Assembly (NCBI GenBank): GCA_002704915.1
Contig: PAIP01000068.1
Span: 186,001-250,000, forward strand
Source: Parvularcula sp.
GTDB lineage: Bacteria; Pseudomonadota; Alphaproteobacteria; Caulobacterales; Parvularculaceae
Length of the DNA: 64,000 nucleotides
Direction of reading: 5' to 3'
Position 1 is the stretch's first letter; each line of letters begins with the position of its first letter. The notes under the pieces are model-generated. The model searched no databases, had not been told where the DNA came from, and was given only the letters and a program-made list of their open reading frames with translations. Shown piece after piece: positions 20,861 through 38,258 of the stretch. Both the position numbers and the translations under genes were made by a program.

Positions 20861-23119
20861 TCAGGCGAAGTAATGCCCTATATATTTGTTGCTGTAGGAA
20901 AGCGTGTCTTCGACGCCGAACCGGCTTTGCAGCTTCGCATTGACCCGCGTAAGCGCGACGCCCACCGCGTCCAGTGTGTGGTCCGGCAATGTCCTGATCG
21001 CCTGGCGCACCGTGTTCACCCGAGTTTTCCGCCAATGCACCGCGAAGAGAACGAAATCGGCATGCGCCGCAATCTTGCGGGCCTCCGCAAACGGCATGAC
21101 CGGCGCGCCATCGAGAATGATGATTTCATAACGGCGCTTCAACTCGTCGATGAAACCCGCAAATCGCTCATCGTCAGCGAACTGTTCATTGTCGCGACTG
21201 GAATCGCAATTCTTCAAGATATCCGGACGATCCGGCCGTGTTGTGACGATTGCATCATCAAGCGAGGCGTCGCCCTGAAGCACATCGGAAACGCCGAACT
21301 CCACCGCCTTGCCGTTCAGGCGTGACAGGTCCCGCTTCATGCGGTCACAATCGACAATGATTGTTTTCTCGCCGGCGCGCGCGGCGGCGATCCCCAAGGC
21401 GGCCGTCAAGGTTGTCTTGCCTTCGTCAGGCACGGCCGAGGTGACATATATCACATGCGGCCCGGGATGGCCCAATCGAAACTGAATAGAGGTCATCAAA
21501 CTCGAAAGGGATTCCGATAATGGCGAATGCGGATGGTTGATGACCGTCGACAATACGCTCTTGTCGTGAGGCGACACCGTATGATTGAGCGGCACGGCGC
21601 CCACCGCCGGCGCGCCCAGCTTTTGCTCGACTTCCGTTGTCGAAGTGAAGCCGCCATATGTCATCTCCATGATGAAAGCGGCGACGGCGGCGACCGTGCC
21701 GCCCAGGATAATGCCGAAAACAAGATTCAGGGGAATATTCGGCTTGCTGGGCGCACTGGGCACGCGGGCGGCGGTGATGATGCGCGCGTCAGGCTTTTCG
21801 ACGCCTTCGCGCGCCACGATTTCCTTATAGCTATTGAGGAAACTTTCATACAGCGCCTGCGAAGCGCGGGCGCGCCGCTCAAGATCACCAAGCTCGACCG
21901 AAGCGGTGTTGTTCTTGGCGAGCTCCTGTTTGAGCTGGTTCAGGCTCGCCGTCAGGGAGGCGACCCGCTGGCGGGAGACATTATATTTTCCCTCAAGTCC
22001 TGAAATCACGCGGTTGATTTCGGTCTGGATCTGCTCGTCGATATCGCGCAGCTCCGCTTCGCCTTTTTTCAGCTCCGGGTGATCTGGCCCATACCGCCCG
22101 CTCAAATCTGCAACACGCATGCTGATATTCGCCCGTTGCGCGCGCAGCGATTGAACGACGCCGGAGGCAAGAACATCGCTCACATCATCCCCAGCCGACC
22201 CCACCTCAAGACGCTGGCGTGCAGTCGTCAGCCGCGCAACATCTTCCGCCGCCACGGCCTTGGCCTGCGCGAGCTGTTGATTGAGCGCAGAAATATCCTG
22301 TTCGGTAAGGGTTGCGCCGGTCGTGCTGAGCATATTGTTGGCGATGCGAAATTCCTGCACCTTTTCCTGATCGCTTTGCGCCTGCTGGCGCAGCTCTTCG
22401 ATCTTGCGGTTGAGGAAGTCGGCATTTCCACGGCTTGATTGTTGCTTGCGGCTCAACTGGTCGTGGACATAAGCGCCGGCATAAGCGTCGGCCATCTGGG
22501 CGGCGCGATAGGGGTTGCTGTGGATATAGGTAATTTGGAGAGAGTAGGTGTTGCCGATGCGCGAGGCCCGCAAGCCGCTGCGCAAATAGTCTGCAACCAA
22601 GGGTCGCGAAGCCTCTAACGCCTCTTCCGTCGGCGCGAGCCGCGGCTCCGCCGGAGCAGCGCCGAACAGCCTGGCGAGCAATGACGGCTTGGCGTCCGCA
22701 GACATCAATAGCGGGCTGAACTCAGGGTCGTGAACAAGATCGAGCTGATCTACGATGGTGAGCGCGAGTTCGCGGGAATAAAGAATGCGCAGCTCTGTGC
22801 TTAGCTCCGCCTCCCCGCGCAGGATTTCCGACCCCTCCTCAAGCACATCGGGCGTGGCCTCCCCGCGTGTATTGAGGACCACCTCCGCCGACGCCGTGTA
22901 TTGTTTTGGCGTCGTAAATGTCTTGATCACGCTCAATGTAAAAATCGCAAGAAAGATTACGACCGCAAGACCCAGCCGGCGCAGAAAGAGACTCTTCAGC
23001 ATATCGAGATCGATGCGGTCGCCGCCGCGTGTCGAGTCAAAAGCCGATTTCTGGCGCGCGCCTTCTTCCGGGCGCCAGAATTGCGCTTCTTTCGGGGTGA
23101 TGATCTCAGGCAAGCTCAT
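20861..23119 (-). CDS. Polysaccharide co-polymerase and BY-kinase (Wzc/ExoP-like)
   Basis: 752 residues in one chain. An N-terminal Wzz domain with TM1 near 48-68 is followed by a coiled-coil periplasmic region (about 220-400) and GNVR-type RVPSAPSKPNIPLNLVFGIILGG leading into TM2 (about 465-490). The cytoplasmic kinase has Walker A AVPDEGKTTL (about 562-570), Walker A' TIIVDCDRM and Walker B IIILDGAP. The C-terminus ends with three tyrosines in SYSNKYIGHYFA, a short version of the Tyr cluster used for trans-autophosphorylation. It controls polymer length and couples polymerisation to export through the Wza-like lipoprotein. It follows an outer-membrane barrel gene, and the two probably share a transcript. 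Confidence 0.94.
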   Translation of the reverse strand: MSLPEIITPKEAQFWRPEEGARQKSAFDSTRGGDRIDLDMLKSLFLRRLGLAVVIFLAIFTLSVIKTFTTPKQYTASAEVVLNTRGEATPDVLEEGSEILRGEAELSTELRILYSRELALTIVDQLDLVHDPEFSPLLMSADAKPSLLARLFGAAPAEPRLAPTEEALEASRPLVADYLRSGLRASRIGNTYSLQITYIHSNPYRAAQMADAYAGAYVHDQLSRKQQSSRGNADFLNRKIEELRQQAQSDQEKVQEFRIANNMLSTTGATLTEQDISALNQQLAQAKAVAAEDVARLTTARQRLEVGSAGDDVSDVLASGVVQSLRAQRANISMRVADLSGRYGPDHPELKKGEAELRDIDEQIQTEINRVISGLEGKYNVSRQRVASLTASLNQLKQELAKNNTASVELGDLERRARASQALYESFLNSYKEIVAREGVEKPDARIITAARVPSAPSKPNIPLNLVFGIILGGTVAAVAAFIMEMTYGGFTSTTEVEQKLGAPAVGAVPLNHTVSPHDKSVLSTVINHPHSPLSESLSSLMTSIQFRLGHPGPHVIYVTSAVPDEGKTTLTAALGIAAARAGEKTIIVDCDRMKRDLSRLNGKAVEFGVSDVLQGDASLDDAIVTTRPDRPDILKNCDSSRDNEQFADDERFAGFIDELKRRYEIIILDGAPVMPFAEARKIAAHADFVLFAVHWRKTRVNTVRQAIRTLPDHTLDAVGVALTRVNAKLQSRFGVEDTLSYSNKYIGHYFA

Positions 23120-23166
23120 TCGGCTTTCCGATCTTCCTGTTTTGACCCGCCGTCACACCGTTCATT

Positions 23167-24447
23167 TCAGGCCATCACCGACAGCTTGAAGGCGAGCGTG
23201 TAGCGTTCGAAGTTCTGTCCCGGCGCAGCGGTCGGCGAGAGCGAGCGATCGGCGTAAGACGCACGCACCCCGAGGGCCAAATGGCGGTTCAGCTTGTAGT
23301 CGCCGCCGATCTGCGCTTCATATCGCTCTGCGGTCGCATTGAGATTTTCAAAATTCTCACGCGCATAACTCATCATGCCGGTGACGATGAAGTTACGCAG
23401 CAACTCATAATCGACCGTCGCCGAAGACCGAGTAACCGTAATAGCGTCCACTTGTGAGAACGCGCTCGTCAGAATTTCCTGCCCGCTATTGATAGAGACA
23501 CTAATTAACGGCGTGGGATGCCAGTCCACAGACGCTGCAATACTGACCCCGTCAAAATCGGAAAAGCTGTCATCGTCGAAGGTTGTCTTGCGATAACCGA
23601 CAATCACACTACTGCTGATGAGTTCCGTCAGATTGTAGGCAAATCCGGCGCCCGCAGAAACCGATTGCGAGTCACGGCTGACGCCAGCCTCTTCATTTGT
23701 GAAATCATTTTTCGAGATGGTTCCATTGACGAGAAAAGAGAGGCGTTCGCTTGCGTCGATGCTGGCCGTTGTCGAATTCGAGACAGTGTTCCGGTCCCGG
23801 AAATCCTGATCAATATCGCCTTGCGCCGTTTCGATATCGCTATAATCGACCTTTGAAAAGGTAGCTTCATTGCGCAGGCCGAAACCGCCGAAGTCATGAC
23901 TGAATCCTACTGCAAAGTCAGCAGTCTTGCGTTCCAGCGGCGCACCGAAACCCAGGTCATTTTCAACTGTGCCGCGCGCTGCTTCCTGATCGCGAAACGC
24001 CGCCCGCGCCGCATAAGTCGTGGACGGTCCGATCAGACCCAGCGCGCTCAGCGACGCAGCGTAGTTGTTTCGGTTCTGCTGCGTAATATCGAAATAACGA
24101 TTGGCGTCCGCACTGAGCGACAACTGAACGGCATGGCGCGGACGCACATAACGAATATCTGCATTGGCGGAAAGGAAGGCGACGCCGTCCGACTGAGCGT
24201 CGACGCCGGAACTCAAGACATTGCTGTCGAGACGCACGCCGCTGTCGATACGCGGCAACAGTTTTACACCGTGAAAGTCGAAGCCTTTTGCATCATATGC
24301 CGGCTGAGGCCGCTTTCCGGCGACGTCTGGCGGCGAGGCGATGAAAATATCCTGCGCCGCCGCCGCTTTGCCGGAGATGGCCGCGATCACGCCGGCGGCG
24401 GCGTTTGCGAAATTGCGATGTCGAGTTACTCCGCTCACCGCTGCCAA
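23167..24447 (-). CDS. Outer-membrane beta-barrel protein (BBP2/exopolysaccharide-locus type)
   Basis: 426 residues: N-terminal signal-like segment (about 1-32, ending AAAAQD), then many short amphipathic strands joined by acidic turns, and the C-terminal strand RYTLAFKLSVMA. The pattern matches the outer-membrane beta-barrel family repeatedly found next to Wzc/ExoP genes in alphaproteobacteria, proposed as the outer-membrane conduit for the polymer. This would fit with the Wza-like lipoprotein of this locus being too short to make its own pore. The TTG start at 24447 has AGGGAG at good spacing; a GTG three codons later is the alternative. The gene is divergent from the EEP-family gene. Confidence 0.78.
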   Translation of the reverse strand: MAAVSGVTRHRNFANAAAGVIAAISGKAAAAQDIFIASPPDVAGKRPQPAYDAKGFDFHGVKLLPRIDSGVRLDSNVLSSGVDAQSDGVAFLSANADIRYVRPRHAVQLSLSADANRYFDITQQNRNNYAASLSALGLIGPSTTYAARAAFRDQEAARGTVENDLGFGAPLERKTADFAVGFSHDFGGFGLRNEATFSKVDYSDIETAQGDIDQDFRDRNTVSNSTTASIDASERLSFLVNGTISKNDFTNEEAGVSRDSQSVSAGAGFAYNLTELISSSVIVGYRKTTFDDDSFSDFDGVSIAASVDWHPTPLISVSINSGQEILTSAFSQVDAITVTRSSATVDYELLRNFIVTGMMSYARENFENLNATAERYEAQIGGDYKLNRHLALGVRASYADRSLSPTAAPGQNFERYTLAFKLSVMA

Positions 24448-24635
24448 ACGCCTGTCTCCCTCACTGCCTTGATGAACAGCTCAAAGCCGTCATCGGCGCG
24501 ACGCGTCCCGGGCGGATTTGCAAGCAGTTGTAAAATCCGCAGCTCCAAGCTTATGATAGCGAAAATTGGTGCGCTGCACAATGGCAATGCCGCGTTGCAG
24601 CGAACAAGGGGCGATTTGCCAGACGTCAGGTCACG

Positions 24636-25673
24636 ATGACGCCGATCATACGCAGAAGCGCTTTGCCGCCGCGAATTTTCCTGAAACCTTTTCAAGAGGT
24701 TGTCAGTTGGATCAGCTCGGCTTGCGCCTTCTTGTTGCTGCTCTCCCAAGCTGGACAATGGCTCCCGCCGGCCGATCTGTTAAACCATCTCCTGCCTCAA
24801 CTCCTTATGGTTTCGGCGATTTTTGTTGCAATGCAACTTGGCTTCGCCATCCGCTACAGAAACAGTCTCTGGGCGCCGCTGGCTATTGCCTGCCTGGTGA
24901 TCGGCGTGGCTGGCCGGATGGTGCTTCCCGAGATAGCGGCCGCCGCCCCTTCCCCGCCCGATCGCCATGGCCGAAATTATCGCTTTGCGGTCTTTAACAT
25001 GAAGCAGAAAAACCACACGCCTGACGCCGTTATCGACTGGCTGACAAACAACGCATTCGATTTCGCCGTTCTGCTTGAGGCCGATGCATCTGTTATTCGC
25101 GCGGTAGACCGGGCTTATCCCCACGCCGCCAATTGTCTCGAAAACAAGCGGCGCTGTTCAACGGTGGTGATCTCTGCGCGAGCGCCGGCGAAAATCAGGG
25201 GGCTAGCCAGTTGGGATCCGCAAAACCGCAAATCTCTCTCTGCGATCGAAACGGTTTTTTGCCTCGACGGCCAGGAGCTTACCATTATCGGCGCACACCT
25301 ATCGCGACCCTGGCCGCCTTTTGCACAAAATCGCGACCTGAAAGATCTCCTCCGGCATGTGGCGGCGAGCAACGACCGCAACATAATTGTTGCCGGCGAC
25401 TTCAACTCGACGCCTTGGTCTTTCAGATTTCGCGCATTCGATCGCAAGCTGGGCCTTACCCGCGTAACGCGCAGCCTTTTCACCTGGCCAGCGGACCGGA
25501 TTGTCCCTCCGCTCTTGCCGCTCGATCATATTTTTGTAAGCCGGGGCATACGCGCAGGCGCGCCGCATACGGCTGCGGCAAACGGCTCCGATCACCGTCC
25601 CGTAGTGATGACATTTTCACTTTCTCAAAGTGGAGATCATGCGCATCAGGCAGTATGCAGTACTTCGTCATGA
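24636..25673 (+). CDS. Membrane-anchored endonuclease/exonuclease/phosphatase (EEP) family protein
   Basis: 345 residues. Three hydrophobic segments lie between about 25 and 100, so it is anchored in the inner membrane. The C-terminal EEP domain starts RFAVFNMKQKN and keeps the catalytic blocks: EADASV (metal-binding Glu), GAHLSRPWPP, VAGDFNSTPWS (about 252-262), PLDHIFVS (about 292-299) and GSDHRPVVM (about 316-324). The domain probably faces the periplasm and hydrolyses a phosphodiester or phosphomonoester; relatives are common in exopolysaccharide loci with no proven substrate. It overlaps the following nucleotidyltransferase by 19 bp, so it may be co-expressed with the lasso cluster. Confidence 0.82.
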   Translation: MTPIIRRSALPPRIFLKPFQEVVSWISSACAFLLLLSQAGQWLPPADLLNHLLPQLLMVSAIFVAMQLGFAIRYRNSLWAPLAIACLVIGVAGRMVLPEIAAAAPSPPDRHGRNYRFAVFNMKQKNHTPDAVIDWLTNNAFDFAVLLEADASVIRAVDRAYPHAANCLENKRRCSTVVISARAPAKIRGLASWDPQNRKSLSAIETVFCLDGQELTIIGAHLSRPWPPFAQNRDLKDLLRHVAASNDRNIIVAGDFNSTPWSFRFRAFDRKLGLTRVTRSLFTWPADRIVPPLLPLDHIFVSRGIRAGAPHTAAANGSDHRPVVMTFSLSQSGDHAHQAVCSTSS

Positions 25674-26773
25674 GAGAGCGGAAGAAAAGATATTCCCCGG
25701 AATTTCGCTTGATATTAGGCGTTCTCTCCTCTTCACAACCCGGCATCTCTGACAATCCGGATATTGACTGGCCAGAGGTTGACTGGAATGAATTTTTCCA
25801 GCTCCTTCGGCGCCACCGGATTACGGGACTTGTAGCCAACCTCCTCCTGTCACCTGCCGGAGAACACAAACGCTCGCCCTTGCCGAAAGAAATCATCCCG
25901 GCCCTGGCCGAGGCGCAGCGTCAATCGCTGGCGCAGGAAATGGCGGCGCTTGTTGAAGCGCGCGCCCTGATCGATCTTTTCGAGGATAACGGACTTGCGC
26001 CAATATTGCTGAAAGGCCTGACGCTATCCCATGACGCCTTCGGCAGGATCGGATGGCGCAACAATTATGACACGGATATCTTGTTGAGGCCTGACGAAAT
26101 CCTGCTTGCGGACCGACTGCTCCGTGAGCGGAATTACTCCCGCTTTGAGCCCGCAGAAGACGCAAATGATCAAAAATGGGCTTTGTGGCGCCGGCGGCGC
26201 AAGGACGCCGCCTATAGAAATCAAAAATCAGGGTCGATTGTCGAACTCCATTGGCGCCTGTTCGATAACCCGGCCATTCTCCCCGCGCCCTTGAGAACGA
26301 GAAAAGCTGATCTGCTGGGCAATCTCTGTTGCACCATGCTCGAACCAGACGTGAATTTCGCCTATATCTGTTGTCATGGCAGCCAGCATGCTTTTTCGAG
26401 ATTGAAATGGCTCGCCGATGTTTATTTTCTGGCCCGCAAAAAATCCGAGGCGGAGCTGGCGGCGCTATTGGAGACTACGCCCGATCCCTATGCCCGTGCG
26501 GCCATAGCGCAAGCCCTGCTCTTGTGCAGCAAGTTGTTTGGCCTTTCCTTGCCGTCAGACACGCTTATGTTTGAAAAAACCAATATCCGCCTCGCCGCCT
26601 GGATGGCCGATAAGACGCTGACCCGCGGCGGCAGCCGGGAGATCGAGACACTTCCTTTTGGCGCAACACTGAAAACGCTCAGCCATTATTTAATGAGCGC
26701 GGCCCCCGATTATCTCGCCCGGGAAGCCCTGTTCGATGCGCGCGAAAAACTCCACGGAAGGACTACAATATAG
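25655..26773 (+). CDS. Nucleotidyltransferase-fold protein (NTP_transf_5) in the lasso cluster
   Basis: About 372 residues. GLAPILLKGLTLSHDAFGRIGWRNNYDTDILLRPDEI at about residues 110-150 carries the nucleotidyltransferase core: the K-G segment and the metal-binding D-x-D of NYDTDILL. This is the family named uncharacterised nucleotidyltransferase, members of which occur in lasso-peptide clusters, including some with a kinase. A possible role is adding a nucleotide or other group to the phosphorylated lasso peptide, but no reaction can be read from sequence. The start is 25655, or 25670 where ATGA overlaps the previous stop codon. The frame stays open upstream only as a shadow of the EEP gene. 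The lasso precursor follows 150 bp downstream. Confidence 0.82.
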   Translation: MQYFVMRERKKRYSPEFRLILGVLSSSQPGISDNPDIDWPEVDWNEFFQLLRRHRITGLVANLLLSPAGEHKRSPLPKEIIPALAEAQRQSLAQEMAALVEARALIDLFEDNGLAPILLKGLTLSHDAFGRIGWRNNYDTDILLRPDEILLADRLLRERNYSRFEPAEDANDQKWALWRRRRKDAAYRNQKSGSIVELHWRLFDNPAILPAPLRTRKADLLGNLCCTMLEPDVNFAYICCHGSQHAFSRLKWLADVYFLARKKSEAELAALLETTPDPYARAAIAQALLLCSKLFGLSLPSDTLMFEKTNIRLAAWMADKTLTRGGSREIETLPFGATLKTLSHYLMSAAPDYLAREALFDAREKLHGRTTI

Positions 26774-26834
26774 CGCGAAGGCGCAACTAATGCGGCAGCG
26801 CAGCAAGATTTTTGTTGCGGTAGCGAAAAAGATA

Positions 26835-26865
26835 TTGACAGTACTGGACGGCGCGCGCCTAAGAT
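26835..26865 (+). promoter_or_regulatory. Candidate sigma-70 promoter of the lasso precursor
   Basis: A perfect TTGACA (26835-26840) is followed after 19 nt by TAAGAT (26860-26865). The spacer is longer than ideal. The precursor ATG lies 58 nt downstream, behind GGAGGG. Confidence 0.5.
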
Positions 26866-26923
26866 TAACAGTTATTAGTAATTTTGCACTTTCAGAACGG
26901 TACGATTCTCTACGGAGGGGGCC

Positions 26924-27076
26924 ATGCAAAAGAAAGTCTACGAGACGCCTGCGCTTGAAGAAGCCGGCTCATTCGAAGAAGTAACGCTCGCCATTCAGGG
27001 CGGGACGATTGTCGACCAGGAATTTATCGATTCCATCGTGTTGGGCGATCCTGTTCCCACCGGAGCGTTTTCCTAA
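26924..27076 (+). CDS. Lasso peptide precursor (50 aa)
   Basis: A 50-residue peptide with GGAGGG in front of its ATG. Residues 6-21 (YETPALEEAGSFEEVT) match YxxPxLxxxGxFxxxT exactly, the leader motif bound by B1 (PqqD-like) proteins. The Thr is normally the penultimate leader residue, so cleavage is expected after Leu22. The core would be Ala23-Ser50, 28 residues: AIQGGTIVD forms the ring, Ala1 joined to Asp9; the loop and tail are acidic and hydrophobic, with DPVP and a C-terminal Ser. Ala1-Asp9 rings and terminal Ser are known from paeninodin. An alternative core from Gly26 would give a Gly1-Glu8 ring. The hand-computed neutral monoisotopic mass of the 28-residue lasso is about 2827.4 Da. 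All maturation genes follow on the same strand. Confidence 0.9.
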   Translation: MQKKVYETPALEEAGSFEEVTLAIQGGTIVDQEFIDSIVLGDPVPTGAFS

Positions 27077-27132
27077 GAAGCCGTCCAGCGGATCAGCGCC
27101 TTCCGCAGCGTTTGTATGAGCGGAGCCGCACC

Positions 27133-27402
27133 ATGTATGTTGTGCCAGATCGCGTCGTTGCAGCCCCAGTGCCGGAAGGCGTCGCGATATTAAACACGCA
27201 AACTAATCGTTACTACACGCTGAATTCAGTCGGCGAATATATCTGGCGCGGCTTATGCGACGGTCAGACAAGCGATGTCATCATCGCCGGTCTTGCAGAG
27301 ACATATGATGTAGAGGCGAGCCGAGCGGAAGCGGATCTATCGGCCCTGCTAAGCCAACTGGAAAATGCCGGCCTCATCGCTCAATCCAATGAACCAGCCT
27401 GA
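27133..27402 (+). CDS. PqqD-like lasso leader-binding protein (B1)
   Basis: About 89 residues of the PqqD/RRE fold: VAILNTQTNRYYTLNSVGEYIWRGL followed by VDVIIAGLAETYDV-like helices and SALLSQLENAGLI. In split lasso systems this stand-alone RiPP recognition element binds the leader motif of the precursor and delivers it to the B2 protease. The ATG at 27133 has GGAG upstream; a TTG at 27112 is possible but adds an untypical tail. It begins 56 bp after the precursor stop codon and overlaps the B2 gene by 14 bp, so the pair is translationally coupled. Confidence 0.9.
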   Translation: MYVVPDRVVAAPVPEGVAILNTQTNRYYTLNSVGEYIWRGLCDGQTSDVIIAGLAETYDVEASRAEADLSALLSQLENAGLIAQSNEPA

Positions 27403-27817
27403 TAGCTCATCCGTCGGCGCGGAATTTCGGTCCGCGCGCCTTTTTGTGCTTGCCTGGCTCAGTTTGATTTTATTCCGCTTCACACTTTCTCTTTTCGGAT
27501 ACCGCCTATCGAAGCGGCTTTTGCGCGATGATGTCGAGAATTTACAGCCGGCGCCGCCTGCTTTTGCGCGTCGCGCCGCTCTCGCCGCCAACCGGGCAAG
27601 CCGCTACACGCCCGGCGCGACCTGTCTGGTGCGGGCCATGGCGGGAAAATTCCTTCTCGACAGAAAATCTTTCGCATCGTCGATCTGCATCGGCGTCGCC
27701 AAAGAGATCAATGAACCGCTGAAAGCGCATGCCTGGCTGAAAAGCGGAGACCTTGTCGTCATCGGCGATGAAGAACGCCAGCTTGGCCGTTATGCGCCGC
27801 TGATGAGAAGCTCGTGA
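27389..27817 (+). CDS. Lasso peptide leader peptidase (B2, transglutaminase-like)
   Basis: About 142 residues. The conserved Cys-His-Asp triad of the B2 cysteine protease is present: Cys in GATCLVRAM (about 79), His in KAHAWLK (about 114) and Asp in SGDLVVIG (about 121). A hydrophobic helix near the N-terminus (about 20-38) may attach it to the membrane. It cleaves the leader after the Thr-X pair of the precursor. The ATG at 27389 is favoured because it overlaps the B1 gene; an ATG at 27365 would add eight residues. Its stop codon is one base from the cyclase start. Confidence 0.9.
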   Translation: MNQPDSSSVGAEFRSARLFVLAWLSLILFRFTLSLFGYRLSKRLLRDDVENLQPAPPAFARRAALAANRASRYTPGATCLVRAMAGKFLLDRKSFASSICIGVAKEINEPLKAHAWLKSGDLVVIGDEERQLGRYAPLMRSS

Positions 27818-27818
27818 C

Positions 27819-29753
27819 ATGGGGGCGCTCGCGGGGATTTGCGCAGGGCCCGGCGAGGCATGGCATGAAGAGAAGATACGCAAGGCCGCGCGTCAGTCTC
27901 TCTCGGCGATCCAATCCTCAGGCGTAAACCCGTCCTCGCATCACTTTGAGGGCGGCGCCTTGCTGAGCGCCGCCGGCTATGCCGGCCTTGACGGGCTCTA
28001 TCATGACAATAAAGGCAATGCGGCTGTCATTGAGGGCCGGCTCGACGACGTCGCCGAGCTTGCAGACGCGCTGGGCGTTGCGGGCCAGCTTGAGGATGCG
28101 GCCTTGCTCCTCACGGCCTATGATCGCTGGGGCCTTGATGTCGTCGAAAACATCAAAGGCAATTTCACCTTCGCCATGTGGGACGCCGGACAAAAACAAT
28201 TATTGGCCGCCCGGGACGCCATCGGCTTCGGCCCGCTTTACTACGCATTGCATGAAGGGACGCTTCTCTTCGGCTCCCGGATGGAAGCCCTGCTTCGAGC
28301 GGCGCCGCAATTGCGCGCCGGGCTGCGCCACGAAATCCTCGAAGATTACGCCGCAAGCGCGATCGCATATGACGAAGACCGAACATTATATGACGGAATA
28401 AAGCGTCTTCATCCTGCGAGCCTGCTCGTTTTCAAGAATGGCTGCGTGGAAACGAAAACCTATTGGCGGCTGGCGCCCAAAGAAATATCCGGAGATTGTG
28501 GCGAAGAATTTCTGGCGCGCTTTACAAAGGCCGTTCAACGACGCATGCGTGGGGCCAGCCAGATCGCTTCATCTTTAAGCGGCGGACTCGATTCATCCTC
28601 CATCACTTGCTTGTTGCACAAGCGCCTCGCCAGTGGCGGCGCCCGGCCTCCCGTCGCGCTGTCCAGCATTTTCGATGGCAAAAACGGCCCTGACGAGCGC
28701 GACTATATGGACGCCGTTTGGCGCACGCTGCCGGCTTCATCCCGGAAACTTGTGGTTGATTCAAGCGAGGTCGCCGCTTTTGAAAAGCTCGACCGCCTCG
28801 TAAGCGACCACAGTCAGCCCTTATGGATGCCGAATGCAGCGATTGCGATGCATCCGGTCGAAGAGCTGCGTGACCGGACAAATGTCAATGTTCTGCTGCA
28901 TGGCCATGGCGGCGATGAAGTCGTTTATCACGGCGCCACCTATCTTTTCGAACTTGCGGAGAAAGGTCGCTGGGGCGAACTCTGGCGCGAGCTCGATATG
29001 GAATCCATTAGCCGCAATCCATCGAACAAGCTCGTCTATTATCTTTGGCTGATGATGACGCTCGGCCCTGCGGCGAAGACGGTCTGGCGCGTCCGACAGG
29101 CTGCTGCGCTCCGTCTTTGCAAACAAAATGCTCTCGGCTGGCCCCTCGGCGCCGAATTCTGGCCGCGCCATGTGCGCGCCAGATATGAAGAAGATCAGCG
29201 CCTCTTCGCGCGCTTTGCCCGCCCCCACCCTACCGATGACTTGCGCGCCCTGCCGCGGTCACAGCGCGAACATCTTTTGATCCTGACGGACCCCTTGCAA
29301 GCCTATGGCCGAGAAGCGTTGCATCACCAATATGCGGGGGCCGGCGTTGAAATCCGCTATCCGTTCTGGGACGCCGAGCTGGCGGAATTCTCTGTTTCCC
29401 TGCCCGGCTCGGAAAAATGGAAAAACGGACTTGGACGGTCGATCCTGCGCCGGTCCATGAACGGCTTGTTGCCGACTGAGGTTGCCCAACGCAAAACCAA
29501 ATACAATTTCAAGGGCTATCTGGCGCGCAGCATGCGCAATGGCGGGGGCGAGAACGTCATCGCCCATGCGGTTTACGATCAGGCGGACGACCTCGCGCCT
29601 TATTTCGATGTCGCCAAGCTTCAGAAAACATTCGAAACCTTCCGCAGCGGCGAGGACTTGCAGGAAGGCGTCGCATTGTTCGCGCTCTGGCGGGCGGTCA
29701 TTCTCGGGGCCTGGCTGCAAAAAAACCGCGAGGCGCCGGCTTATGTCCACTGA
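27819..29753 (+). CDS. Lasso cyclase (asparagine synthetase-like, C protein)
   Basis: 644 residues with the two-domain AsnB layout. The N-terminal glutamine-amidotransferase-like domain (about 1-210) starts MGALAGICAG, so the catalytic Cys that AsnB has at position 2 is missing, as in lasso cyclases, which do not need ammonia. The synthetase domain has the ATP pyrophosphatase loop SSLSGGLDSSSITCLL (about 251-266) and further AsnB-like blocks such as LLHGHGGDEVVYHG, and EIRYPFWDAELAEF. It would adenylate the ring Asp side chain and join it to the core N-terminus. It starts one base after the B2 gene and overlaps the kinase gene by 11 bp. Confidence 0.92.
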   Translation: MGALAGICAGPGEAWHEEKIRKAARQSLSAIQSSGVNPSSHHFEGGALLSAAGYAGLDGLYHDNKGNAAVIEGRLDDVAELADALGVAGQLEDAALLLTAYDRWGLDVVENIKGNFTFAMWDAGQKQLLAARDAIGFGPLYYALHEGTLLFGSRMEALLRAAPQLRAGLRHEILEDYAASAIAYDEDRTLYDGIKRLHPASLLVFKNGCVETKTYWRLAPKEISGDCGEEFLARFTKAVQRRMRGASQIASSLSGGLDSSSITCLLHKRLASGGARPPVALSSIFDGKNGPDERDYMDAVWRTLPASSRKLVVDSSEVAAFEKLDRLVSDHSQPLWMPNAAIAMHPVEELRDRTNVNVLLHGHGGDEVVYHGATYLFELAEKGRWGELWRELDMESISRNPSNKLVYYLWLMMTLGPAAKTVWRVRQAAALRLCKQNALGWPLGAEFWPRHVRARYEEDQRLFARFARPHPTDDLRALPRSQREHLLILTDPLQAYGREALHHQYAGAGVEIRYPFWDAELAEFSVSLPGSEKWKNGLGRSILRRSMNGLLPTEVAQRKTKYNFKGYLARSMRNGGGENVIAHAVYDQADDLAPYFDVAKLQKTFETFRSGEDLQEGVALFALWRAVILGAWLQKNREAPAYVH

Positions 29754-30654
29754 CGCCAAAACGCCGCCTTTCGCCTATGAATGTTTCGGGCAGCACATCC
29801 ATTCCGATTTTCAGTTTCAGGAAATGGATGAGACGCAGGCGGCCGATCCCGATCTTTTGATCATTCGCAACAAGGCGTTGCTGCGGCCGCCCGAAAAAAC
29901 TCAGATGGCGCAGTTTCTACCGGACCGGCAGTTCTTCGATTTTCCGGACGTCGCACAAGCGGAAATCACCGATAAGACGCGCCTCGCAATCGCCCTTTAT
30001 CCCGGCGCGGCGGAGGCGATGCTGGGCCTGCCGGTCTTCGGGCCGGTCATGGCGACCATGCTGCATTACAGGGGGTATCTGGTTCTTCACGGCAGCGGCC
30101 TCGTCATCGACGGAAAACTGAATGTCTTTGTCGGGCATCGCGGCGCCGGCAAATCGACCACGGCCGCCTGTCTGGTGAAGCGCGGCCATCAGCTTTTCAC
30201 CGACGATCTTGTCGTCATCGATCTGAGCGATCCTTCAAATCCTCTCGCCCTCCCCGGTTACTCGGCGATGAAAATTGCACCGGACATTGCGGGGCGCTTT
30301 CAGCCGGAGGAAGCTGAGCTGCTCTCTAATGGGGGCTATCCCTATCCAAAGGAGCGGTTGCGCATCAGGCAGAAGCAGCCGCTGCAATGCATGCCGATCA
30401 AGGCGATTTATGAACTCGAAAGAGCCGACGGCGCAGGGCTCGAAGCGCTCGATTTCAATCCGGCGATGAACACGCTCATGCAGCATTCTTATATGCTGAA
30501 ATTTGGCAACGCGCCCATGGCCGCCGGGCGCGGCGCGGCGCACTTCACTCAGGTGACGCGGCTCGCAAGCCTAGTCGGCGTCCACAGGCTGAAAACCCCG
30601 TCAAGCCTCGCCGCCCTTCATCAGATCGAACCGCTTTTGACCGGAGCGGCCTGA
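29743..30654 (+). CDS. HprK-like kinase, probable lasso peptide tailoring enzyme
   Basis: 303 residues. The Walker A loop is FVGHRGAGKSTTAA (about 129-142), followed by LFTDDLVVIDL with the paired Asp (154-155) expected of HPr kinase-type active sites, and YLVLHGSGLVI before it. Such kinases phosphorylate the C-terminal Ser of the linear precursor in paeninodin and related clusters; the precursor here ends in Ser. There is no HPr or phosphotransferase gene nearby, so regulation of sugar transport is unlikely. The ATG at 29743 lies inside the cyclase 3' end; the frame is open further upstream only as a shadow of the cyclase. The ABC transporter follows without a gap (TGAGTG). Confidence 0.86.
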   Translation: MSTDAKTPPFAYECFGQHIHSDFQFQEMDETQAADPDLLIIRNKALLRPPEKTQMAQFLPDRQFFDFPDVAQAEITDKTRLAIALYPGAAEAMLGLPVFGPVMATMLHYRGYLVLHGSGLVIDGKLNVFVGHRGAGKSTTAACLVKRGHQLFTDDLVVIDLSDPSNPLALPGYSAMKIAPDIAGRFQPEEAELLSNGGYPYPKERLRIRQKQPLQCMPIKAIYELERADGAGLEALDFNPAMNTLMQHSYMLKFGNAPMAAGRGAAHFTQVTRLASLVGVHRLKTPSSLAALHQIEPLLTGAA

Positions 30655-32463
30655 GTGAAACAGAACGCCGCCTCTCCCAGATCCAGTGACAGAAAGCGTC
30701 ACGACATCCGAGATCTCCTGGCGAATCTCATTGTCGATCAAAAGAGCACATTTTGGCTCGCAGCCTTTTTGTTGCTGCTGACAGGCGCGAGCGAGGGCTT
30801 CTCGATTGCGCTGCTCATTCCGTTTATCGGTCTTATCAATACGGCGGATGAGACAATCGACCTTTCGCCGCCCGCCGGCTTGTCAGGCGGAGAATCTTTT
30901 TCAATCGGTCTCGGCGTCTTTCTCCTGGCTTTTCTCGCCATTATCGTCATCCGCGCAGCTCTGGTGCATATCTCGGCGCTGACCAGCGCCCGGCTTGTGC
31001 AGGATTATGTGAAAAATATTCGCATGCGTCTTTTCGACAGCATCATCCATGCAAAATGGTCGTACTTGTCCGGCCTACGCAACGCCGATCTCTATCACGC
31101 AATGACCGCCGACATCGACCGCATCCAGGCGACGGTGACCGTGATCATGGAGCTGATCAAGTCATCCATCCTTATCCTCATTTACCTTTCCCTCTCTTTG
31201 CTGATTTCATGGCGGCTCACCCTCGCCGCCGCAGTCATCGGAACGCTGTTGATCCTGGCCCTGCGCCCCCTCCGCCGGCGAGCAAGCCAGCACGGCGAGA
31301 CCTATACGTCGGGGCGGCGCGAGCAGTCGCGAATCATTTCCGACTTTCTCGACAATATGAAAATCACCAAAGCCTATTCAGCCGAAGAGCGATTTTCAAA
31401 AACGCTTGAACAATCGATGACTGGATTGCGCGAAACGATCATTTCGTTTCAGCGCCTTTCCTCCCGGGTCAATTTCATTGTTCAGGCCGCATCCGCGCTT
31501 GCGCTCTGCGCCATCGTTTATCTTGCGCTCACCGCCTTTGACATGACCGCCGCCGGAACGCTGGCGATCCTTGTTCTTTATTTCCGCTTCGCTCCGAAAG
31601 TTGTGCAACTTCAGGCTCATGCGCAAACGCTGAACAGCAATATGAGCGCGCTGCAAAACGTGCTTTCTCATATGCGCGATGCTGAGAATGAGCAGGAAGT
31701 CATATCCGGGTCACAGCCGGGATCCCTAAGCCTGAAAAAGGAAATCAGGCTGGAGAACGTCAGCTTCCAATATGACGGCGGAAAACAGGCAATCCGGGGA
31801 GCAAGCGTTGATATCCCCGCGAATAAAATCACCGTGTTCGCCGGCGCCACAGGCAGCGGCAAGAGCACCCTTGCGGATCTGTTGATGGGCATGATCGCGC
31901 AGCAACAAGGGACGATCAAAATTGACGGCGCGCTTCTGGATGAGCGCACGATCGGCGCCTGGCGGCGGTCTATCGGCTATGTGCCGCAGGATCCTTTTCT
32001 TTTTCACGCCACCATACGCGAAAACCTTATGCTCGCCGATCAGGAGGCCGATGAAGCGGCCTTGTGGACGGCCCTGCGCGCCGCGCATGCGGAAAAACTC
32101 GTCCGGACTTTGCCGGCGGGTCTCGATACAATCGTCGGAAACCAAGGCCAGTTGCTTTCCGGCGGCGAACGCCAGCGCCTTGTCCTGGCGCGTGCGCTTT
32201 TGCGCAAGCCTGCGCTTTTGATTCTTGATGAAGCGACAAGCGCTCTCGACTGGGAGCATGAAACCGCCATCGCCACATCGCTGAAGGCGCTGAAACAGGA
32301 ACTGACCATTGTCATGATCGCTCATCGCCGACGCATCATCGCCTTGGCCGATAATATCGTGATCTTGCAGGATGGCGCCGTCATCGAGCAAGGGCCGCCC
32401 AAAGACCTGCTCATGGACGGGACGGGCTATCTTTCGCGACTGGAGAACAGCGAAAGCGGCTGA
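30655..32463 (+). CDS. ABC transporter, lasso peptide exporter (D protein)
   Basis: 602 residues, a fused half-transporter. Six hydrophobic helices occupy about 35-330. The ATPase domain has all motifs: Walker A FAGATGSGKSTLADLL (about 393-408), Q-loop VPQDPFLFH, signature LLSGGERQRLVLARALL, Walker B ALLILDEATSALD and the H-loop MIAHRRR. It would work as a homodimer to export the mature peptide and give self-immunity. The start is GTG, directly after the kinase stop codon. It closes the lasso operon. Unlike the ABC gene at 36452-38158, its ATPase motifs are intact. Confidence 0.93.
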   Translation: MKQNAASPRSSDRKRHDIRDLLANLIVDQKSTFWLAAFLLLLTGASEGFSIALLIPFIGLINTADETIDLSPPAGLSGGESFSIGLGVFLLAFLAIIVIRAALVHISALTSARLVQDYVKNIRMRLFDSIIHAKWSYLSGLRNADLYHAMTADIDRIQATVTVIMELIKSSILILIYLSLSLLISWRLTLAAAVIGTLLILALRPLRRRASQHGETYTSGRREQSRIISDFLDNMKITKAYSAEERFSKTLEQSMTGLRETIISFQRLSSRVNFIVQAASALALCAIVYLALTAFDMTAAGTLAILVLYFRFAPKVVQLQAHAQTLNSNMSALQNVLSHMRDAENEQEVISGSQPGSLSLKKEIRLENVSFQYDGGKQAIRGASVDIPANKITVFAGATGSGKSTLADLLMGMIAQQQGTIKIDGALLDERTIGAWRRSIGYVPQDPFLFHATIRENLMLADQEADEAALWTALRAAHAEKLVRTLPAGLDTIVGNQGQLLSGGERQRLVLARALLRKPALLILDEATSALDWEHETAIATSLKALKQELTIVMIAHRRRIIALADNIVILQDGAVIEQGPPKDLLMDGTGYLSRLENSESG

Positions 32464-32591
32464 GGAAAATCGGCGCCTGCACTCGTCTTTTTTTCAAGCC
32501 ACGAGCATCTTTGCTGCTTTGCAATAAAAAAATGTTGCAGCGCACGATGACTGCCCATAAGGTTAAATCGTCAGGAACGACGGGGGCTGTC

Positions 32592-33350
32592 ATGGCGTTT
32601 GAGTCGCGTTCTAAGTCCGATCTCGACCCGATTTCGTTTTATCAAACGACCCCGGGAGCAAATGTCGTCGCCCTGCGCCAATCTCCCAAACCAGAGTCTG
32701 ACGCGCGCGACGCAGCCAATCCGCCGGTCGCTTCCATGCCTGTGGGCGGCGCTTTGAAGCGCGCTTTCGACATTATGGGCGCTGCCGGGGCGCTCCTGTT
32801 TTTTGCCCCGCTTATGCTCGTGATTTCAGCCCTGCTTTCGCTTGAAGGCGGGCCCGTTTTCTTCGCGCATAAGCGTATCGGCTTTGGCGGCAAAAGCTTC
32901 GGGTGTCTGAAATTCCGGTCGATGATTGTCGACGCCGAAGCGAAACTTGAAGAATATCTCGCTGCGAATCCTGACGCGCGGGCGCAATGGCGGCGCGAAC
33001 GCAAGCTTGATAATGATCCGCGCATCACGCGTCTTGGAAAAATCTTGCGGGTCACCAGCCTTGATGAGCTTCCGCAGTTCATCAATGTCCTTAAAGGCGA
33101 GATGAGCCTTGTGGGACCGCGCCCAATCACGCGCGACGAGGCCGGTTATTACGGCGAAAAGTTCACGCATTATCTCGCCTGCCGGCCCGGCATTACCGGC
33201 GCATGGCAAGTGAGCGGACGCAGCGATACGTCATATAATCAACGCGTCGATCTCGATGCGACTTATGCGCTCGGACATTCTGTAATGATTGATATGGATA
33301 TATTGTTCCGGACGGCAAAGGTCGTGCTCGAACGCACGGGCGCTAAATAA
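32592..33350 (+). CDS. Priming sugar transferase (undecaprenyl-phosphate glycosyl-1-phosphate transferase)
   Basis: About 252 residues of the bacterial sugar-transferase family in short form. A single membrane helix or re-entrant hairpin (about 58-80, AFDIMGAAGALLFFAPLMLV) is followed by the catalytic block: GGPVFFAHKRIGF, KFRSMIVDAE, RITRLGKILRVTSLDELPQF, MSLVGPRPITRDE and CRPGITGAWQVSGRS. It starts repeat-unit assembly by linking a hexose-1-phosphate to undecaprenyl phosphate. The ATG at 32592 gives an N-terminus of normal length; starts at 32511 and 32547 are possible. It is a core exopolysaccharide gene lying directly behind the lasso operon, which shows that the latter is inserted in the locus. 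Confidence 0.92.
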   Translation: MAFESRSKSDLDPISFYQTTPGANVVALRQSPKPESDARDAANPPVASMPVGGALKRAFDIMGAAGALLFFAPLMLVISALLSLEGGPVFFAHKRIGFGGKSFGCLKFRSMIVDAEAKLEEYLAANPDARAQWRRERKLDNDPRITRLGKILRVTSLDELPQFINVLKGEMSLVGPRPITRDEAGYYGEKFTHYLACRPGITGAWQVSGRSDTSYNQRVDLDATYALGHSVMIDMDILFRTAKVVLERTGAK

Positions 33351-33965: not shown

Positions 33966-35420
33966 TCAGCCTTCAACCAGAACGTCCGACAAGCCGAACC
34001 GCTGCAGATTAACAGTGGCGGCGTCGAAGTTCACACGGGCAATGCGCGCCCGCGCAATGGCGCGAAGCATCCCGATCTGCGCATCCGCCGCCGCTTCCTC
34101 GCGCAGGTTCAGAAGGAAAAAATCGCTGGCCCCATTGGCGAAACGCTCCTGCTCGGCGCGGCGCATGGTTTCCGCCTGCTCGACTTCATCCCTTGCCATG
34201 CCGACGAGCTCAGTCGCGGTTTTCAGCTCAATCAGGATATTTCGAATTTCTATTTCGACGCGTTCCGCCGCCAGTTTCCTTTGTTGCAGCGTCGCTTCGC
34301 GTTTTGCTTCCGCCGCCGCGAGACGTCCGCGTGCTTCGCGCCGTTGCAGGGGCAGGGAAAAACGCAAGCCCACATATGCCTCGGTCATGCCGGACGGGGT
34401 ATCGTCGATGCCCGCCGCATCAAAATCCTTGGAGACTTCCGCCTTCAGATCAAGCCGGGGCAGAAGCTGGTTGCGGCGCAGATCGGTTTCGACCTCAAGC
34501 CTTTCGAGAGCCGCAGACAAAAGCGCAAGTTCCGGCCGATGCCGTATGGCTTCCGCGATCGCCGCCGATGGCGACATGATTGTCTCGCTTTCCACGCCCG
34601 CGGGGAACGAATTGGGAAGGCCGTTGTCGGATGGGATTAGCGGCGTTCCGTCCGGACTTCGATAAAACAAGGACAGCTCGTTCGCAGCCGCTTCATAGTC
34701 CCGCTGCGCTTCGGCCGCCAGACGCTGGCGGCGAATGATGTTCTGCCGGTTTTCCGTCAGAAAGATAGCCGCCTGCGCGCCGCGGCGCACCTGTTCTTCC
34801 AGCCCGGTTTCACGCTCTTTGGCGATGGAAAGCAGGCGTTCATAGACCCGCAACTGATACCCTGCGGCAACCCAGCGCCAATAGGCGACGGCCGCCTGCC
34901 GCTGCACGCCGATTTTTGTTAACAGAACATCGAGTTCCGCCTGCTGCAGCGCCAGCCTGGCGTCGAACTCTGAAAAGCGCCGCTCATCGATCGAGCGATC
35001 GCGCAGCAGGGAGAAAACAACGCCCAGCCGCGCCTCCCCCGCATCGGCGGTTTCAAAATCGCGTTCATAAATCGGGAAGTCACCGCCGGACAGACGATAA
35101 CCGCTGTAAAGGCTGGCGCCCAGCGGCCGCAGATTGCGCCGAATTTCGGCATCCAGCGCCTGTCCTGAATAAAATCCCGATACGCGGTCCACGGACTCGG
35201 CGGAAAATACGAGATCAAACGCCCCTTGCGCTTCAATGACAGCCCCAGCCGCCGCTTTCCGTCGCGCGAGGCCCTCGAGAATAGAAGGGTAGTTCTTTGC
35301 CGCGCTGGCAAGCACGTCATCGACTTCAAGCGCCGTGGTCTCCGGCGCCTGACCCAGCGCTGGGTGAAACGATGACGCAATGAGGGCCAACAGCATAACT
35401 ATAACGCGCCCAAACCTCAT
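33966..35420 (-). CDS. TolC-like outer-membrane efflux protein
   Basis: 484 residues. The signal peptide (about 1-24, ending HPALGQ) is followed by two repeats of long alpha-helical coiled segments separated by strand-like stretches, the TolC/OEP layout. LDLKAEVSKDFDAAGI and YVGLRFSLPLQRREARGRLAAAEA resemble the strand-and-helix junctions of the family. It would form the trimeric channel-tunnel for the HlyD and ABC partners encoded directly upstream. It overlaps the HlyD gene by 4 bp. Confidence 0.85.
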   Translation of the reverse strand: MRFGRVIVMLLALIASSFHPALGQAPETTALEVDDVLASAAKNYPSILEGLARRKAAAGAVIEAQGAFDLVFSAESVDRVSGFYSGQALDAEIRRNLRPLGASLYSGYRLSGGDFPIYERDFETADAGEARLGVVFSLLRDRSIDERRFSEFDARLALQQAELDVLLTKIGVQRQAAVAYWRWVAAGYQLRVYERLLSIAKERETGLEEQVRRGAQAAIFLTENRQNIIRRQRLAAEAQRDYEAAANELSLFYRSPDGTPLIPSDNGLPNSFPAGVESETIMSPSAAIAEAIRHRPELALLSAALERLEVETDLRRNQLLPRLDLKAEVSKDFDAAGIDDTPSGMTEAYVGLRFSLPLQRREARGRLAAAEAKREATLQQRKLAAERVEIEIRNILIELKTATELVGMARDEVEQAETMRRAEQERFANGASDFFLLNLREEAAADAQIGMLRAIARARIARVNFDAATVNLQRFGLSDVLVEG

Positions 35421-36448
35421 AAAGATGCTCCCATATTGGCGTCTGCGGGAAATTTGGGCGGGAAGTTATTCAACTGGCGCCAGAGTTCGTAACCGACAGA
35501 CACCCGTTCCAGCAGCACCCAGCCCCGCGCGCCGGCGCCGAAGCGAATGTAACGCTCATCCGGCCATGGGTTGGGATCCGTTTCATCTTCTATGATGAGA
35601 ACACGAAACCGGCCGCTGGCGTCAGCCGAAGGATCGATGGCGGCGACAACGCCGCCGAATGTGCCGACCGCAACAGAGGGCCATCCGCTGAACTGAACGA
35701 CCGGCCAGCCTTCGAATTGAAGGCGGACCTTGGACCCTGGCCTCACAAGCGCAACATCGCGGCCGTCTATGAAGAGCTCGACAGCCCGTTCCACATTTTC
35801 AGGAACAAAAGTGGCGATGACATCGCCGGCATTGACAAAGGTCGCTGTGTCGCCGGCCTGCATGCGTATGATGACGCCATCGCGCGGGGCGCGAACAATC
35901 TGCATTGATTGCCGGGAAATGTTGACATCAATCCGGTTAAGCTGGGCTTCCGCATCGGCCACCTGGGTGCGCAAGGATTCAACGCGAATCTGCGCTTGTT
36001 CAAATTCGCGCCGCGAAGAGAGACCTTTTTCGAAAAGCGTTTTCATCCGGTCGTAATCGAGGCTGGCCGTTTTCTGCGCGACCTTTGCCGCGTCGATCTT
36101 GGCGATCACCTGCGCCCGCTCCGCTTCCAGCCGCTCAATCAGCAACGGATCATTGTCGACGATCCTGACGATCGGATCTCCGCTTTTGACGGCGCTCCCT
36201 TCGCGCACATGCCATTCCACTATGCGGCCGGAAACGAGCGCGTTAATCTCCTGCAACCGATCATTGGGATTCAGGGCGGTTACGACGCCTGCGCCTGCGC
36301 TCGTCTGCACCCAGGGGGTGAACACGAGAAAAACAAGCGCCGCAGCGACGCCTGCAGAGAGCATAATGGCGACGGCTGAAATCAGTCGAGGCGTCCGGAT
36401 CGAAGCCAGGGTTTTGAAATGGCGGATATGACGTTCGCGAAACGGCAT
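35417..36448 (-). CDS. HlyD-family periplasmic adaptor
   Basis: 343 residues with one N-terminal membrane helix (about 23-48), a barrel-sandwich segment (GRIVEWHVREGSAVKSGDPIVRIVDND), a coiled-coil hairpin (about 105-180) and the return half (RAPRDGVIIRMQAGDTATFVNAGDVI), followed by a beta-barrel domain. It would bridge the ABC protein and the TolC-like channel. It is coupled by ATGA to the TolC gene and is 3 bp from the ABC gene. The substrate may be a peptide, protein or polysaccharide; context allows either the lasso peptide or the polymer. Confidence 0.88.
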   Translation of the reverse strand: MPFRERHIRHFKTLASIRTPRLISAVAIMLSAGVAAALVFLVFTPWVQTSAGAGVVTALNPNDRLQEINALVSGRIVEWHVREGSAVKSGDPIVRIVDNDPLLIERLEAERAQVIAKIDAAKVAQKTASLDYDRMKTLFEKGLSSRREFEQAQIRVESLRTQVADAEAQLNRIDVNISRQSMQIVRAPRDGVIIRMQAGDTATFVNAGDVIATFVPENVERAVELFIDGRDVALVRPGSKVRLQFEGWPVVQFSGWPSVAVGTFGGVVAAIDPSADASGRFRVLIIEDETDPNPWPDERYIRFGAGARGWVLLERVSVGYELWRQLNNFPPKFPADANMGASL

Positions 36449-38158: not shown

Positions 38159-38258
38159 CGCTCGACCTTCGCCCGCCCATTCCATTTCTTTCTTCGCTCG
38201 TCAGACGAGCGTCCCCTCTACGATACTTGTTTGGAAGTGTCTGGTTTTCACGCTGGCG

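Follow-up and report, generated by a model that had tools for sequence, protein, structure and literature searches.

The described lasso peptides closest to the system reported here are paeninodin of Paenibacillus dendritiformis, with the core AGPGTSTPDAFQPDPDEDVHYDS, which holds no Lys or Arg, and pseudomycoidin of Bacillus pseudomycoides, with the core AGPGKRLVDQVFEDEDEQGALHHS (PMC12427821). The kinase PadeK modifies the precursor at its C-terminal Ser while it is still linear; PsmK places phosphate or polyphosphate on the Ser at the C terminus, and the resulting phospho-Ser receives one or two hexoses from PsmN, a prior nucleotidylation being given as the alternative (PMC9266682). In Bradymonas, BsfK modifies Ser3 of the core and not the C terminus (PMC10368454). 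A WxxP leader is nearly invariant in paeninodins, and both the paeninodins and the linear polyphosphorylated peptides (LPP), found in capsule loci of Bacilli, are called restricted to Bacillota in PMC13381572. This study of Bacilli already reports the co-location of such clusters with polysaccharide genes and leaves its role open; the roles of paeninodins are described there as unknown (PMC13381572).

Here we describe a locus from Parvularcula sp. that adds a proteobacterial case, with a kinase, a nucleotidyltransferase and a distinct core. The whole stretch of 64,000 nucleotides that was analysed is called the window. The placement of this cluster in a polysaccharide locus is new here, the Bacilli version having been published already; in the literature searched, with partial coverage, no proteobacterial report of a link between lasso peptides and polysaccharides was found.

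Results

The lasso genes and their immediate neighbours are as follows, in positions of the window.

20861 to 23119, minus strand: Wzc-type chain-length protein with an ATPase domain, 41% identical to the protein of locus L110 (Sphingopyxis sp. JAI128)
23167 to 24447, minus strand: BBP2 beta-barrel outer-membrane protein (PF10082, 172 bits), in the same place in L110 and in locus L285
24636 to 25673, plus strand: EEP-family (endonuclease/exonuclease/phosphatase) protein (PF03372)
25670 to 26773, plus strand: N, PF14907 nucleotidyltransferase (Pfam 141.5 bits, tested from 25682), Lys-Gly and Asp-x-Asp intact, pol-beta-type nucleotidyltransferase fold
26924 to 27076, plus strand: A, putative lasso precursor, 50 residues and a stop, predicted leader M1-L22 and core A23-S50 (28 residues)
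27133 to 27402, plus strand: B1, PqqD-type leader-recognition protein (RRE) (PF05402, 66.4 bits)
27389 to 27817, plus strand: B2, transglutaminase-like leader peptidase (NF033537, 85.1 bits, cut-off 33)
27819 to 29753, plus strand: C, asparagine-synthase-like macrolactam cyclase (PF00733, SGGLDSS motif at 254, tree placement)
29743 to 30654, plus strand: K, HPr-kinase-like precursor kinase (conserved residues, profile match to HPr kinases)
30655 to 32463, plus strand: D, ABC exporter with membrane and ATPase domains (Walker A GATGSGKS, homologues in relatives)
32511 to 33350 (start approximate), plus strand: WbaP-type sugar-phosphate transferase (PF02397, 204.6 bits), 47 bases after D

The operon has the order N-A-B1-B2-C-K-D. 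The start of N overlaps the stop of the upstream EEP gene by 4 bases and N ends 150 bases before A; A and B1 are 56 bases apart, and the gaps that follow are -14 (B1-B2), 1 (B2-C), -11 (C-K) and 0 bases (K-D). Neither a hairpin nor a terminator is supported in the space from A to B1 (fold z-score 0.38; one weak terminator-like site, with 0.7 expected). An earlier note on this DNA had placed B1, B2 and C after A, and this part of its reading of the locus stands; the nucleotidyltransferase, Ser28 as the modified residue and the polysaccharide locus were not named in it.

The translation of A is MQKKVYETPALEEAGSFEEVTLAIQGGTIVDQEFIDSIVLGDPVPTGAFS, and a purine-rich, ribosome-site-like acggaggggg lies immediately 5' of its ATG. 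The description of a 50-residue open reading frame with a YxxPxLxxxGxFxxxT leader directly before B1-B2-C proved exact, and A passes two curated models, NF033521 lasso_leader_L3 of NCBIfam (31.2 bits, curated cut-off 19) and PF19397 of Pfam (25.7 bits, curated cut-off 22.6). It had also been thought too short for usual gene calling; this is not borne out by the two curated models, both of which recognise it. Across the whole 4.5-Mb genome, NF033521 at E<=10 hits six places, of which A alone, at 31.3 bits, lies above the cut-off; the remaining five score 9.9-11.7 bits. The exact leader motif occurs in 1 of the window's 587 open reading frames of 30-150 residues; it is absent from the 4,680 such frames of 37 further class loci with B2 and from the 57,071 frames of 60 simulated windows. 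A looser pattern, Y..P.[LIV] followed by 3-4 residues, G, 4-6 residues and T, matches once in the window, six times in the 37 class loci and nine times in the 60 simulated windows. The model scores above cut-off, the single match in the genome and the rarity of the motif thus argue that A is real and no chance match, and the open reading frame at 26924-27076 very probably encodes a complete lasso precursor.

The enzymes retain their characteristic residues. In N, K111-G112, R126, D130, D132, H190 and D246 (alignment numbering) are kept in all 23 aligned sequences. Its AlphaFold model (mean pLDDT 79.5) matches nucleotidyltransferase folds, best of all a MenT1 structure (E 3.7e-5), and less well aminoglycoside enzymes (E 4e-3 and weaker) and FKRP-type proteins (E 0.02 and weaker); the TM-scores by query length are 0.19-0.37 in the rows listed, so the fold match covers part of the model. 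B1 scores 69.8 bits on NF033530, slightly under the cut-off of 70, and in B2 C79 and H114-A115-W116 are invariant in the five aligned sequences. For C the nearest cyclase model is NF033535, which gives 355.6 bits, below its cut-off of 525. K likewise falls below the cut-off of PF07475 (28.7 bits, cut-off 33.3). Nevertheless, K has H116, G134, G136, K137, S138, D154 and D155, none of which varies among the 19 lasso kinases aligned, as well as G131, so that the BsfK motif (as given in PMC10368454) is complete with its eight residues and their spacing. When the lasso-kinase profile was run against PDB sequences, HPr kinases were the best matches. By predicted function, the core genes A-B1-B2-C together with K, D and N are the gene set of pseudomycoidin.

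The predicted core of A has an A1-D9 ring, F12 and a C-terminal F27-S28; it contains no Cys, hence no disulfide, and besides Ser28 it has Ser15, Thr6 and Thr24. It was aligned with 13 selected precursors, namely 11 of the clade described below, Nostoc L128 and Pyrinomonadaceae L148. Left out were L283 (core as in L282), L144 (core as in L128), 35 of the 37 Mesorhizobium loci from the best 80 of 531 relatives, and three precursors that depart from the pattern (the second of L148, Calothrix L137 and the second of Sulfitobacter L196). Thr at position -2, Asp9 and Phe or Tyr at 12 are found in all 14 aligned precursors, and a C-terminal Ser in 13, the exception being L100, which ends in Ser-Asn. 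Gly1 is the commonest first residue (11 of 14), and Ala1 is also found in L100, paeninodin and pseudomycoidin. The boundary two residues past Thr, giving a 28-residue core, is kept as a prediction because Thr has the same spacing in all 13 selected relatives. Asp9 counted from it is likewise present in each of them, so that the Ala1-Asp9 ring already proposed for A can be regarded as a well-supported prediction. The hand-computed mass of the unmodified Ala1-Asp9 lasso, about 2827.4 Da, was recomputed as 2827.428 Da; with phosphate it would be 2907.394 Da, and with phosphate and a hexose 3069.447 Da.

The relatives' cores have 24 residues in 12 of 13 cases and 25 in L100. The four extra residues of the window's core align as one block after position 14, and the Gly-Asp-Pro that follows aligns with x-Thr-Pro in 13 of 13 relatives (Gly-Thr-Pro in 8). 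On this alignment, the 28 residues are the usual 24 plus a four-residue insertion. The earlier note had taken 28 residues to be long for the class; ubonodin has an equal length (PMC12427821), and achromonodin-1, with 30, and pandonodin, with 33, are longer (PMC13352647). It had also called the precursor probably undescribed, which agrees with the fact that neither the core nor the tails searched for are printed in the literature searched, again with partial coverage.

Several precursors depart from this pattern. The precursor of Calothrix L137 has 30 residues and ends in Gly. Most cyanobacterial precursors in the wider precursor list have Asp at 8 or 9 with other tails and ends, so that clusters with a kinase do not always encode a final Ser. 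Pyrinomonadaceae L148 carries two precursors, at 9882-10043 and 11032-11208, and one of them has a 30-residue core that ends in Ala-Phe-Ser, as does the window's. The Sulfitobacter indolifex plasmid L196 has two precursor-like frames, at 5057-5197 (plus strand) and 2726-2863 (minus strand), near one lasso cluster; neither is among the record's listed genes, and the second ends in Thr-Thr-Pro and has no C-terminal Ser. In the alphaproteobacterium L070, two precursor-like frames (5004-5180 and 6151-6315) with the common end GEYNSYDQCGHASWGC lie near a cyclase-like gene.

Searched at strict thresholds, the cyclase was seen in the window's own genome only, both among 62 genomes of the family (E<=1e-60) and among 385 of the class (E<=1e-50); the class result is a weak negative, at most three candidates having been scored per genome. 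The single window cyclase found no relatives in the public genome collection. When the class was searched with the B2 family, 33 of 385 genomes matched, among them that of the window, and 12 of 37 stretches from the other B2-positive class genomes, when put in trees, fell outside the window's clade. Relatives came from three further searches. The cyclase alignment A5 gave 531, of which the best 80 were taken (loci L110-L189); the phylum search contributed L100, from the same order, together with six genomes that belong to a single genus; and the kinase search of 298 genomes of the family labelled f15 matched 68, from 40 of which stretches were taken. The six best of these kinase loci (L282-L287) have an operon and a precursor of the window's kind.

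Kinase trees were made with 42 rows (quick) and 39 rows (careful), and a cyclase tree with 42 rows. The window groups with Sphingopyxis L110 with SH-aLRT 97 and 99 in the 42-row trees, and with L285 as well in the 39-row tree (98/89). The alphaproteobacterial clade that contains them has support of 99 (42-row) and 100/99 (39-row) for the kinase and 96 for the cyclase, and the Bacillota loci L197 and L198 lie outside it. Judged by these trees, kinase and cyclase alike place the window in a clade of kinase-type lasso clusters that is alphaproteobacterial. Long-branch flags stand on C in the 42-row tree and on K in the 39-row tree, and the exact sister is therefore less sure than the clade. The GC content does not change along the window and so shows no trace of recent transfer, against which stands the absence of Wzc and EEP matches from the rest of the genus, given below.

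Gene content and order indicate that the lasso operon is embedded in an exopolysaccharide locus (20861-33350) colinear with those of Sphingopyxis L110 and L285. L110 has the same order of Wzc (minus strand), BBP2 (minus strand), EEP, N, A, B1, B2, C, K and D, and L285 repeats this ten-gene block and has a WbaP-like gene on the far side of D. Both share with the window the leader and the Asp9, Phe12 and Phe-Ser features of the core; unlike the window, both have 24-residue cores with Gly1, and L110 is only 28-41% identical over the nine proteins other than A. In the window's family, Wzc is found in 15 of 62 genomes and the EEP gene in 1 of 62, the window's genome included, and among 27 other genomes of the same genus neither Wzc (E<=1e-60) nor the EEP gene (E<=1e-15) was found. 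Among the loci probed, EEP homologues stand beside a lasso cluster only in L110 and L285. On the minus strand beside the locus lie an outer-membrane efflux protein (33966-35420), an HlyD-type adaptor (35417-36448) and an ABC-type protein (36452-38185). In the last, Pfam finds the membrane part only and there is no GxxxxGK[ST] or LSGG[EQ] motif, so its ATPase looks degenerate.

The window's own polysaccharide proteins were then used as probes, with matches counted at phmmer scores of at least 50 bits. With the window excluded, six of eight lineages of the clade have the lasso cluster beside polysaccharide genes (L110, L285, L286, L100, Mesorhizobium and Sulfitobacter); the negative lineages are L287 and the three g490 genomes L282-L284, taken as one, and L117 was left out of the count, being a contig of 4.5 kb. 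A WbaP-like gene is present in 37 of 37 Mesorhizobium loci (from the best 80 of 531), in Sulfitobacter L196 and near the clusters of L285 and L286, and L100 has a Wzc-like gene. In the controls, 1 of 37 class B2-bearing loci (L039), 1 of 34 lower-scoring f15 kinase loci (L292) and 1 of 40 stretches taken arbitrarily from class genomes (L225) were positive. By Fisher's test, 6 of 8 against 2 of 71 lasso-type B2 or kinase loci gives p 2.7e-6, in a comparison in which the lineages are not fully independent and about one third of the 34 f15 controls have, in the stretch taken, the kinase as their sole lasso gene. Against the 40 arbitrary stretches p is 1.5e-5, and with L110 and L285 counted as one it is 2.0e-5 against the 71. 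The other phylum-level cyclase hits (L098-L109 minus L100) are positive in 3 of 11, and adding them to the controls gives p 1.9e-5. Among the best 80 of 531, 41 loci lie outside Mesorhizobium, L110 and L117, and 11 of these have a Wzc- or GT4-like gene; all 11 are cyanobacterial, and the cyanobacterial Wzc-like matches are weak (50-88 bits). The TFS-type loci L128, L137, L144 and L148 gave no match to the polysaccharide probes.

Discussion

The present analysis describes a lasso operon, N-A-B1-B2-C-K-D, of an alphaproteobacterial clade, and we think it likely that it makes an Ala1-Asp9 lasso peptide with a four-residue insertion that is phosphorylated on Ser28, further modified by N and exported by D. 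B1 would bind the YxxPxL leader, and K would phosphorylate Ser28, the C-terminal residue of the core, on the linear precursor. B2 would then cleave after Leu(-1), two residues past Thr, and C would close the ring between the Ala1 amino group and the Asp9 side chain, with the tail caught inside. N may add a further group on the phosphate, most likely a hexose, and D would export the product. The genes, the motifs, the catalytic residues of K, N and B2, the core register and the relatives are seen directly; the order of steps, the site of phosphorylation and the role of N are proposed on the basis of the published paeninodin, pseudomycoidin and Bsf work together with the intact gene set. The product is most likely a class II lasso peptide, phosphorylated on Ser28 and possibly glycosylated there. 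Possible phosphorylation had been suggested before, and as a prediction it gains from the HPr-kinase-like K downstream and from the C-terminal Ser in 13 of the 14 selected precursors.

The same lasso peptide could be made with a different decoration, K modifying the internal Ser15, Thr6 or Thr24, or N serving the polysaccharide genes and leaving the peptide alone; we consider this unlikely. BsfK, which acts on Ser3, makes it clear that the kinase family does not fix the phosphorylation site, and departures from a C-terminal Ser are seen in L100 (Ser-Asn), in the second Sulfitobacter precursor (Pro) and in many kinase-bearing cyanobacterial precursors. However, the terminal Ser is kept in all but one of the selected precursors, whereas position 6 is variable and position 15 lies inside the insertion. 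As for N, it overlaps the EEP gene and stands apart from A, and of the clade members only the window, L110 and L285 show an N above 20 bits in the stretches retrieved, all three with the full polysaccharide arrangement. Against this, homologues of N stand beside lasso genes without such polysaccharide genes, for example in L293, L296 and L300, and the literature describes psmN as a tailoring gene (PMC9266682). Phosphorylation of Ser28 with modification by N is retained as the preferred reading.

It is improbable that the cluster is decayed or silent and yields no product. The long branches of the window's C and K and the presence of the cyclase in only one of 62 family genomes would fit such a fate, as would the promoter search of 26600-27200, in which no promoter-like site was found (0.4 expected). 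However, all seven genes are open and tightly packed, K, N and B2 have lost none of the residues listed for them, C and D retain their nucleotide-binding motifs, and the GC content is like that of the surroundings. Very improbable is another boundary, ranked by the earlier note as the main alternative, in which Gly26 of the precursor is residue 1 and Glu8 of that frame closes the ring of a 25-residue core of 2515.248 Da: Gly is first in 11 of 14 aligned cores and the Gly26-Glu33 spacing is legal, but the cut would fall five residues after Thr, the Thr(-2) register gives Asp9 in every aligned precursor, Ala1 has precedents in L100, paeninodin and pseudomycoidin, and nothing in the present data supports Gly26.

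Most worth pursuing, for the predicted Ser28-phosphorylated lasso peptide, is its conserved setting among polysaccharide genes. This setting hints at a role in the outer coat of the cell. Taken further, the lasso peptide could be a working part of the exopolysaccharide system and not a secreted antibiotic, namely a phosphorylated, sugar-bearing knot that is exported with the polymer and possibly tied to it via its phospho-Ser-sugar end. We put this forward as a doubtful proposal, because the order of ten genes is kept at 28-41% identity between the window and L110 and because six of eight lineages lie by polysaccharide genes. The locus also suggests that the polysaccharide link of the Bacilli type extends to enzymes whose clade is distinct from that of the tested paeninodins. 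Through this locus, the question of what the phosphate is for becomes a testable one.

How does the window compare with the described peptides? It has the sequence features expected of a class II lasso peptide, namely YxxPxL with Thr(-2), B1, B2 and C alongside, Asp9 within the range of 7-9 and no Cys. As in C-terminally phosphorylated lasso peptides, there is an HPr-kinase-like K with the His, the P-loop Lys and Ser and the Asp-Asp, and the core ends in Ser; as in the glycosylated pseudomycoidin, a PF14907 nucleotidyltransferase stands beside the cluster. LPP resembles it in having an HprK kinase, an NTP transferase, an exporter and a place in polysaccharide loci (PMC13381572). LPP is, however, without a cyclase and has a SipW-like peptidase instead of B2, whereas the window has both C and B2, and none of the 19 window proteins scanned is a SipW-like peptidase. 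SyanA/SyanK of Sphingobium yanoikuyae, a phosphorylated lasso system, is, by description, also proteobacterial, with a kinase and a C-terminal Ser (PMC9266682).

The composition of the core had been thought unlike that of known lasso peptides; paeninodin and pseudomycoidin in fact share its A1-D9 register, acidic tail and C-terminal Ser, and an acidic core of this kind, with A1-D9 and a final Ser, marks the phosphorylated lasso type. Paeninodin is likewise free of Lys and Arg and has an HPr-kinase-like K (PMC9266682), but it has 23 residues, Gln and not Phe at 12, and belongs to a Bacillota clade with WxxP leaders (PMC13381572). The window's core has four identities in register with paeninodin (p 0.03), and a local alignment of the two over their full length does not reach significance (p 0.95). 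Pseudomycoidin, compared in register, agrees with the window's core at 7 of its first 14 positions (A1, G4, V8, D9, Q10, F12 and D14), a number reached by none of 5,000 shuffles, and the full-length local alignment gives a weaker p of 0.009. Pseudomycoidin also has, by description, a kinase and a nucleotidyltransferase beside its lasso genes (PMC9266682) and ends in Ser. It differs in its 24 residues, against 28 in the window, and in its Bacillota origin: paeninodin-type leaders of Bacillota are said to have Trp (PMC13381572), whereas the window's leader has Tyr, and the window's enzymes belong to an alphaproteobacterial clade that excludes both Bacillota sets in the trees (L197 and L198). A search for pseudomycoidin in plasmid records found nothing. 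By the strict description of the Bacillota paeninodins, the leader would read WxxP and K and C would group with L197 and L198; the window has YxxP, and its K and C lie outside that group. It should therefore work like paeninodin and pseudomycoidin without being a paeninodin in the strict sense, and A is probably of the C-terminally phosphorylated class II lasso type, with a four-residue insertion and a probable further modification by N.
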